DNA of 64,000 nucleotides, taken from positions 62,001 through 126,000 of the forward strand of contig CAMDDJ010000002.1 in assembly GCA_945891385.1 (NCBI GenBank), written 5' to 3'. Position numbers and translations under genes: made by a program. Under the pieces are notes generated by a model. It did no database searches, was not told the origin of the DNA, and saw only the letters and a list, made by a program, of their open reading frames with translations. Source of the stretch: Candidatus Kuenenia stuttgartensis. Lineage in GTDB: Bacteria > Planctomycetota > Planctomycetia > Pirellulales > UBA1268. Within the stretch, counting starts at the first letter, position 1. The number at the start of each line of letters is the position of its first letter. Below, piece by piece: positions 22,246 through 58,420 of this stretch.

Positions 22246-22301
22246 GGTTCTTGTCTCAGGGAGTCGATCGGGGGAGGCCTGAACTTGTTGGTGACGCCGG
22301 C

Positions 22302-22435
22302 TCGGACTTGCCCATGCCATCTCGTCGGACGCTCCCTTCGGGCATCCTGCCCTCCGGTCGCTCGGAGGAAACCTTGCTTCGCCTTCCTGGCTACGCTCGG
22401 TTTCCTACGGCGCTCGATTGGCACGGCCAACCCCT
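22302..22435 (-). repeat. Structured intergenic repeat, copy C (minus strand)
   Basis: Read on the minus strand, this is a third copy of the repeat seen at 49221-49358 and 58204-58339. It has a GGGGTTGGCCGTGCC start and a matching ATGGCATGGGCAA end. A central stem pairs AGGAAACC with GGTTTCCT (22366-22373 with 22399-22406). A short hairpin GGGCA-GGA-TGCCC lies at 22340-22352. It occupies the gap between cysD and cysN. Function is unknown. Confidence 0.7.
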
Positions 22436-22566
22436 CGCTGAGTTCTCGGTAGACGGGAGAGATCATGGGCATTGCGGTCACCGTGGACGGAGGAATCGCC
22501 CTCAGCCGCAGGTGCCGTTCAGCGGCCGCGAAGCGGTCCGCTGCAACGGCAGGAGTACGCGCCGCC

Positions 22567-49146: not shown

Positions 49147-49390
49147 TGAGGCCGCAAGCCCGCGGCCACAGGCCAACTGGTACACGGGCCCTGCGAGCAC
49201 TTCGAAAACGGTCCTCAGCGTCGGGGTTGCCCGTGCCCCGAGAGCCGGCGTATGCAGACAAGCGCAGCAAGGATTGCGCAGCGCTGTCTGCATCCGAGTG
49301 AGCGGAGGGCACGGATGCCCGGAGCGAACGTCCGGCGACGGGGCATGGGCAATCCCGACCCACCAACTGACGTCGCCTCCGCCCCTTCAT
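49147..49390 (+). repeat. Structured intergenic repeat, copy A
   Basis: The core is 49221-49358. Outer arms TCGGGGTTGCCCGTGCCCCG and CGGGGCATGGGCAATCCCGA pair at 18 of 20 positions. The central stem ATGCAGACA/TGTCTGCAT is at 49252-49260 with 49285-49293. A hairpin GGGCA-CGGA-TGCCC is at 49307-49320. Before the core, at 49149-49190, GGCCGC-AAGCCC-GCGGCC and ACTGGTACACGGG match the lead-in of copy B at 58 kb. It fills the gap between rseP and the convergent lepA. No open frame here is convincing. Confidence 0.75.
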
Positions 49391-58012: not shown

Positions 58013-58104
58013 CTCGGCGGCCCTCCGGCCGCCGGCCGCACCTCCGGGCGGCCGTGGGCGTGCGCGGATGGGTGGATCTACGGGCTGAAGACGAATCAGC
58101 ACCG

Positions 58105-58420
58105 TATTAGGCAGGCTGCAAGCCTGCCCCCACAGGTCAACTGGTACACGGGCTTCCCCGGAAGGGCTTCCCAAGAAGGGCCTCAAGGAAAAGGGTTGCC
58201 AGGTCGGGGTTGCCCGTACCCCGAGAGCCGGCGTAGAGAACCAGCGAAGCCATGGATGGCGAAGCGCAGTTCTCTCCGAGGGAGCGGAGCCCAGGATGGG
58301 CGAAGCGAACGTCCGGCGACGGGGTATGGGCAACCCCGACCCACCAGGCGGCGTCGTCTCCGCCCCTCTATACGCCACGCCGGCGAACGTCCGGCGAACG
58401 GCCACGGGCAACCCGAAGGC
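58105..58420 (+). repeat. Structured intergenic repeat, copy B, with extra 3' part
   Basis: The core is 58204-58339. Outer arms TCGGGGTTGCCCGTACCCCG and CGGGGTATGGGCAACCCCGA pair at 19 of 20 positions. The central stem AGAGAAC/GTTCTCT is at 58235-58241 with 58269-58275, and a hairpin GCCCA-GGA-TGGGC is at 58289-58301. The lead-in at 58110-58155 holds hairpin GGCAGGCT-GCA-AGCCTGCC and AACTGGTACACGGG, as in copy A. At 58383-58415 part of the 3' segment is repeated (CGAACGTCCGGCGAACGG). It lies between lptB and the PSD1 gene. Confidence 0.75.

Follow-up and report, generated by a model that had tools for sequence, protein, structure and literature searches.

Dispersed palindromes situated downstream of genes are a known kind of bacterial sequence, as exemplified by REP, ERIC and BIME (PMC3733652, PMC2229807). 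REPs, BIMEs and REPINs that are accompanied by a RAYT are high-copy extragenic palindromes, found mostly in convergent and tandem gaps, with mosaic arrangements and the logic of a single-stranded substrate (PMC3733652, PMC8266576). The ERIC/IRU/RU-1 sequences of enterobacteria are intergenic imperfect palindromes of 127 bp, non-autonomous and with structured transcripts, and Correia/NEMIS, RUP and other bacterial MITEs are non-coding, high-copy sequences of 100-200 bp with inverted terminal repeats (PMC2229807). The ends of IS200/IS605 elements such as IS608 and ISDra2 are recognised as hairpins of one strand in a process coupled to replication, and for IS608-type elements the target of the folding strand is the lagging-strand template (PMC6006769). 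In integron attC sites it is likewise one folded strand that matters, and this strand is placed on the leading-strand template, which in chromosomal integrons limits its folding and recombination (PMC11023631). How high-copy palindromes such as ERIC, and REPs without RAYTs, are spread is an unsettled question.

Here we describe a fold-back element that occurs in three copies in the window, that is, in the whole stretch of 64,000 nucleotides that was analysed. It shares with RAYT-associated REPs a high copy number, a location in convergent and tandem gaps, mosaic arrangements and the logic of a single-stranded substrate, and it has no target-site duplication. However, REPs are 20-50 nt long, whereas the element has about 140 nt, a four-way branch and ends without the GTAG/CGTC foot; no RAYT was found in its own genome and none is flanked by its copies. 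Membership of the RAYT-mobilised REPs was rejected on length, on the foot and on the lack of a repeat-flanked RAYT. ERIC sequences resemble the element in several of the traits given above, but they are classed with MITEs that target TA, whereas the element shows no duplication. No ERIC counterpart to the strand-specific fold and replication orientation of the element was found in the open-licence literature, and because its distribution is restricted to one family, in planctomycete genomes, the element is unlikely to be a member of ERIC. Size, high copy number, non-coding nature and terminal inverted repeats, the latter in the form of an outer helix of about 20 pairs, are shared with the MITEs. 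A MITE of a DDE transposon is nevertheless ruled against by the lack of a target-site duplication and of an autonomous parent transposon in about 1.8 Mb of sequence, which covers parts of the own and related genomes. One-strand hairpin recognition and coupling to replication recall IS200/IS605, but the Y1 gene is missing in most of the genus, and the element appears to favour the leading-strand template, the opposite of IS608. This placement is that of attC sites; unlike these, the element lies outside cassette arrays and has no attC core boxes, the consensus RYYYAAC ... GTTRRRY not being matched by its end sequences GTTGCCC/GGGCAAC, and attC membership was rejected.

The window copies and their flanks

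The sequence-only reading had proposed three intergenic copies, and all three were located. Copy A lies at 49219..49360 on the + strand (covariance-model match 49220-49360, 144.4 bits, E 2e-27), flanked by the 3' ends of convergent rseP-like (+) and lepA-like (-) genes. The 58.2 kb copy, at 58202..58342 on the + strand (match 58203-58341, 162.5 bits), occupies a tandem gap with + strand genes on either side, with which it is co-oriented. The 22.3 kb copy, at 22299..22438 on the - strand (match 22300-22437, 109.2 bits), is a diverged member; it is also co-oriented, and lies in the gap of an apparent cysD-cysN operon on the - strand, these names having been given by eye from the coding sequence rather than by a family search. 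All three copies fold far better than dinucleotide shuffles (z = -9.0 for copy A, -10.1 for the 58.2 kb copy and -6.2 for the 22.3 kb copy).

The paired differences described among these copies were likewise recovered. The central stems are exact partners (ATGCAGACA/TGTCTGCAT, AGAGAAC/GTTCTCT and AGGAAACC/GGTTTCCT), the small hairpin reads GGGCA/TGCCC, GCCCA/TGGGC and GGGCA/TGCCC around GGA (CGGA in copy A), and the outer arm shows the double change from G-C to A-T between the 49.2 and 58.2 kb copies. The interval 49147-49390 consists of the element of about 140 nt together with flanks common only to some own-genome copies. The left flank (49147..49218, +) contains a GGCCGCAAGCCCGCGGCC hairpin followed by AACTGGTACACGGGC and GAGCACTTCGAAAACGG modules, which the flank listing shows to be common to many own-genome copies and absent from other genera, and the right flank (49361..49390, +) contains a CCACCAACTGACGTCGCCTCCGCCCC tail module, also common to many own-genome copies. 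Downstream of the 58.2 kb copy, at 58384..58415 (+), lies a partial extra right end, GCGAACGTCCGGCGAACGGCCACGGGCAACCC; tails of this kind recur in tandem behind many copies, with query positions 110-161 repeated downstream.

A covarying fold with sharp ends

The fold comprises an outer helix of about 20 pairs around a branch point that carries three inner hairpins, for a total of about 140 nt (138-141 nt). Pairing was counted on three sets of copies: the genus set has 77 distinct rows, the genome set 79, and a third set, drawn mostly from other genera, 24. Paired cells amounted to 98.1, 95.2 and 97.5%, respectively, versus 34-48% when the structures were slid by 1-3 columns, and two-sided changes were observed in 28, 33 and 26 of the 40 pairs. 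In all three sets, and on every measure, 0/500 shuffles reached the observed values. The alignments of these sets were fitted to the model and thus lean towards the structure; the first, BLAST-collected set gives the same covariation picture. The family is real and its base pairing is under selection, as had been suggested from the three window copies alone: the covariation is found in three separate copy sets against both shuffled and slid controls.

The outer helix extends past the model, the next two positions being tandem GA/GA mismatches in 73 copies or TC/GA in 44. The pair closing this step covaries and is Watson-Crick in 82% of cases, against 39% expected from the column make-up, and is followed by a G-C pair; one base beyond this terminal pair, pairing is at chance. 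The end consensus reads G-N-GA/TC-GGGG ... CCCC-GA-N-C. Similarity stops where pairing stops, and the ends are sharp. In other genera the core is kept and the flanks are unrelated, and the element is therefore the stretch of about 140 nt. Many own-genome copies additionally have flank modules in common on both sides, and extra right ends arranged in tandem.

Copy number and distribution

The own assembly comprises 3.77 Mb in 150 contigs and is 94% complete. BLAST of this assembly gave 40 near full-length places in addition to many partial right ends, and a covariance model built from 30 copies gave 103 matches, about 80 of which are full length. The true number is probably higher, because several copies sit at contig ends. 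The same kind of search, which had been proposed as a check, was extended to relatives and found the element in all 22 genomes of the genus that were searched, with 4 to >80 copies each, some of these genomes being incomplete. The three window copies are thus not the only ones, and the stems hold on the 77, 79 and 24 distinct rows rather than at chance. In an order sample searched with stricter filters, 44 of the 50 genomes of the own family, from 11 genera, were positive and six members had no match, while 0/197 genomes from other families of the same order were positive. Phage and plasmid collections and viral contigs gave no match, the viral contigs having been covered by one exact-pattern scan. 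A known structured RNA of Rfam 15 was rejected as a candidate, as nothing matched at gathering score and a relaxed search also gave nothing on the element.

The strand that folds

A G·U pair on one strand corresponds to an A·C mismatch on the complement, and the two kinds of change can therefore tell the strands apart. By parsimony on a tree of 143 copies, 107 events led from Watson-Crick to G·U pairs and 26 from Watson-Crick to A·C; among the BLAST-collected copies, the outer helix gave a ratio of G·U to A·C of 40 to 1. Since G·U changes exceed A·C changes, one strand, the top strand, is under selection to fold. Mutation bias would not explain the excess, because the replication-linked, C- and A-rich composition of the strand concerned would favour A·C. 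The top strand also out-folds its complement in 141/149 copies, by 10 kcal/mol as RNA and by 4 kcal/mol as DNA.

Parsimony counts 141 two-sided changes in the inner stems against 90 one-sided ones, and exchange or correction of whole hairpins therefore probably acts too. Paired changes had been attributed beforehand to either selection or gene conversion. The asymmetry between G·U and A·C supports selection; conversion may contribute, given the 141 two-sided changes against 90, yet selection on one strand also acts.

Position relative to genes

Gene calls were obtained with a purpose-written simple codon-score finder, with no annotation. The copies are intergenic, with few ORF overlaps, and lie in 45 convergent versus 11 divergent gaps; they shun promoters and sit downstream of genes, which is the extragenic, downstream and promoter-avoiding position of REPs. 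The strand of the copies relative to their flanking genes, another check that had been proposed, was determined in tandem gaps. Co-oriented and opposed copies numbered 24:8 in the own genome and 17:17 in relatives, giving 41 co-oriented to 25 opposed in the pooled set (p = 0.064), and the orientation relative to neighbouring genes is close to random. An intrinsic terminator was rejected: no T-run follows the hairpin, and the 3' flank resembles CCCACC in the own genome and is unrelated elsewhere.

Orientation relative to replication

Local strand composition was determined from fourfold-degenerate gene sites and corrected for gene strand. The estimates from + and - genes of one stretch agree (rho 0.48), as do GC and TA skew, as expected of a replication signal. 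The top, folding strand was found on the C-rich strand in 110/142 copies (110 vs 32, p = 3e-11). This bias is present in every type of gap (tandem co-oriented 33:8, tandem opposed 19:6, convergent 33:12, divergent 10:1), and the fraction of copies on the C-rich side, examined at several skew thresholds, increases as the skew becomes stronger, up to 12/12. The non-independence of copies that share a stretch is handled by permutation tests. In a test that makes no use of skew, same-contig pairs shared their orientation 47:14 in the own genome (permutation p <= 2e-4) and, for pairs >=3 kb apart, 38:14 in relatives (p = 0.003).

Individual stretches show the same pattern. On two long stretches of one relative (G018), 8/9 copies agree in orientation. 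The largest own contig has four full copies, all of them on the - strand; its ribosomal L2 gene is encoded on +, and 3/4 sampled stretches are G-rich on +, which fits + being the leading strand of this contig. The + strand of the window comes out as C-rich (z -0.04); the 49.2 and 58.2 kb copies obey the rule and the 22.3 kb copy breaks it.

The G-rich strand is the leading strand in most bacteria. If it marks the leading strand here as well, the top strand lies preferentially on the leading-strand template, which suggests that the element either spreads at replication forks or is subject to filtering by them. The bias is the same in younger (32:6) and older (30:8) copies, which makes biased insertion or rapid loss somewhat more likely than slow purging. 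This replication-linked orientation is new and goes beyond what the sequence-only reading expected.

Turnover of sites

Two close relatives, G008 and G011, show about 84-92% identity where they were compared. The state of the copies at the six comparable sites varied: they could be present in both genomes, partly deleted, broken, or missing with other repeats in their place; no clean pair of filled and empty insertion sites was found between these two genomes, and orthologs of the rseP site offered only unoccupied or rearranged neighbours. The site downstream of lepA carries a copy in one orientation in the own genome, G008, G011 (partial), G014 and G020, and in the opposite orientation in G015 and G016, and is without a copy in at least eight species, some of whose contigs end nearby. 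Judged by the G008/G011 sites and the lepA site, the copies are long-lived but are gained and lost between species. No target-site duplication was found: apart from end pairing, there is no excess of equal flanks of 2-9 nt at any boundary within 4 nt.

Search for a mobilising enzyme and an autonomous parent

No mobilising enzyme was found. A Y1/RAYT transposase (PF01797) is absent from the own genome and from 13/22 genomes of the genus; the other 9/22 contain single-copy Y1 proteins of 230-336 aa. The presence of Y1 is not linked to the copy number of the element among the genus genomes, and at four Y1 loci (L142-L145) no copy lies within 1.5 kb where contigs allow. These Y1 proteins may serve other repeats. 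A reverse transcriptase is present in 5/22 genus genomes and absent from 17/22. In about 1.8 Mb from the own and related genomes, no gene bracketed by the ends of the element, as expected of an autonomous version, was found.

An integron integrase scores above the curated cut-off in 14/22 genus genomes, including the own genome, where it reaches 424 bits (cut-off 265) near the end of the largest contig (L083:18108-19052, which is G000:C1:229079-230023, +). Beside this integrase (L283-L285), palindromes that look like the attC type occur at L284 209-295 and 643-729 and at L285 2800-2859. A scan of the arrays beside integrase genes gave no consensus site, and the palindromes there are unrelated to the element.

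Discussion

The best reading of these results is a REP- or ERIC-like repeat of larger size, whose insertion or survival is coupled to the replication fork. We hold with moderate confidence that it is a family-restricted, non-autonomous dispersed repeat of about 140 nt that propagates as a mobile element, with one folded single strand as its substrate; we infer both the enzyme and the movement. A single-stranded process at the fork is preferred to a role in mRNA because selection acts on the fold of one strand, the copies are nearly indifferent to genes, and their orientation depends on fork direction. A trans-acting enzyme for folded single strands, be it HUH/Y1-like, a tyrosine recombinase or other, would copy or move the element at replication forks; alternatively, copies with the folding strand on the lagging-strand template would be quickly removed. 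The intermediate could be ssDNA or RNA. Among the options that the sequence-only reading had listed, a REP-like or non-autonomous mobile element fits best, as there is no gene inside, copies are present or absent between species and the ends are sharp, and the terminator is disfavoured by the missing T-run and the near-random gene orientation. Counterpoints to this reading are the missing autonomous version in the roughly 1.8 Mb covered, the absence of Y1/HUH transposase and of reverse transcriptase from the majority of the genus genomes, a strand preference opposite to that of IS608, the lack of a clean pair of filled and empty sites, and the fact that some sites are common to related species, so that turnover is not fast. 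With a rather low probability, the family may represent a new class of mobile repeats that insert via a folded single strand with fixed fork polarity, the folding strand ending in the leading-strand template, by means of an enzyme unlike those of RAYT, IS200/IS605 and integron systems.

Several other accounts have to be weighed against a mobile element. The copies could be inert palindromes, passively spread, in which template switching or gene conversion within the hairpin restores perfection and the orientation bias stems only from the better-folding strand being less stable when it is on the lagging-strand template. The 141 two-sided against 90 one-sided changes of the inner stems and the advantage of about 4 kcal/mol of the top strand as DNA would both suit such palindromes. 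Hairpin repair alone is strand-symmetric, however, and predicts neither the 107:26 excess of G·U over A·C nor the GA/GA end motif; the folding difference is equal in both orientations; and slow purging, though not fast purging, predicts something other than an equal bias in younger and older copies. Cleavage has, in addition, been detected only with palindromes longer than natural ones (PMC3315005), and we consider a passive origin fairly unlikely. Distinctly unlikely is a cis-acting RNA element at mRNA 3' ends (a terminator, attenuator or stabiliser) spread by mobile dispersal. A role as 3' RNA elements is reported for REPs and ERIC (PMC3733652, PMC2229807), the fold is RNA-like with G·U pairs, convergent gaps are enriched (45 vs 11 divergent) and co-orientation with the upstream gene reaches 24:8 in the own genome only; but the ratio is 17:17 in relatives and 41:25 in the pooled set (p = 0.064), the replication orientation prevails even in antisense settings (19:6), many sites are not retained between species and the T-run needed for intrinsic termination is missing. 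These observations weaken the terminator and 3'-UTR readings.

Strong replichore orientation, high copy number and persistence across the whole family would also be consistent with a host signal of chromosome polarity, with KOPS- or Chi-like logic, kept in orientation by a protein of replication, repair or segregation that reads it. Known polarity motifs are far smaller than 140 nt with a branched covarying fold, and such a signal is very unlikely here: the element is much larger than these motifs, its copies vary from 4 to >80 within one genus (some genomes being incomplete), and six family members had no match under the stricter filters. We regard as most improbable that the copies are attC-like sites dispersed by the resident integron integrase acting on one folded strand. 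Such an integrase is above cut-off in 14/22 genus genomes including the own one, and attC sites follow the same strand logic (PMC11023631); the ends, however, carry no RYYYAAC/GTTRRRY core boxes, the integrase-adjacent arrays carry unrelated palindromes, the copies are single and dispersed rather than in cassette arrays, and eight genomes without a full integrase match, several of them incomplete, still carry the element.

Relative to the open-licence literature, the new points are a large branched fold proven by covariation, an active strand, a replication polarity and no known partner found, an earlier description elsewhere being possible. The family supplies hundreds of comparable copies per genus, for which the fold is proven, the active strand known and the replication polarity measured, and the spread of such repeats and the effects of the fork on them become testable questions. 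The element can also be used as an orientation marker for planctomycete draft genomes.

Variants and companion repeats

In some copies, loops are replaced or filled by a hairpin of about 30 nt, GGGCACCGATCCGC...GCGGATTGGTCG, in which one G·U pair is constant; the resulting variants are 165-194 nt long. This hairpin was found almost only within or beside the element, at L167:10980-11080, L177:19675-19840, L195:6730-6800, L180:6552, L094:16993 and L123:19834-20000. The whole element is also found duplicated in tandem, the units being separated by a short spacer, with a period of 163 nt in G239 and of 191 nt in G016 (L239-L258, especially L257:512-814 and L191:13919-14246). The same gaps are crowded by other families of palindromic repeats, GGCAGGCTGCAAGCCTGCC, GGCACGCAGCGCGGGCT...GCCCGCTGCGTGCC and CGACGCGACTTTTGCCGCCCCCGAGCCGGTG, which are seen at 58100-58140 in the window and in the flanks of many copies. 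Several own-genome copies (for example G000:C71:9534) are bracketed by a second inverted repeat, GTCAACTGGTA...TACCAGTTGAC, with about 40-75 nt on one side only, which looks as if the core had entered another palindrome.
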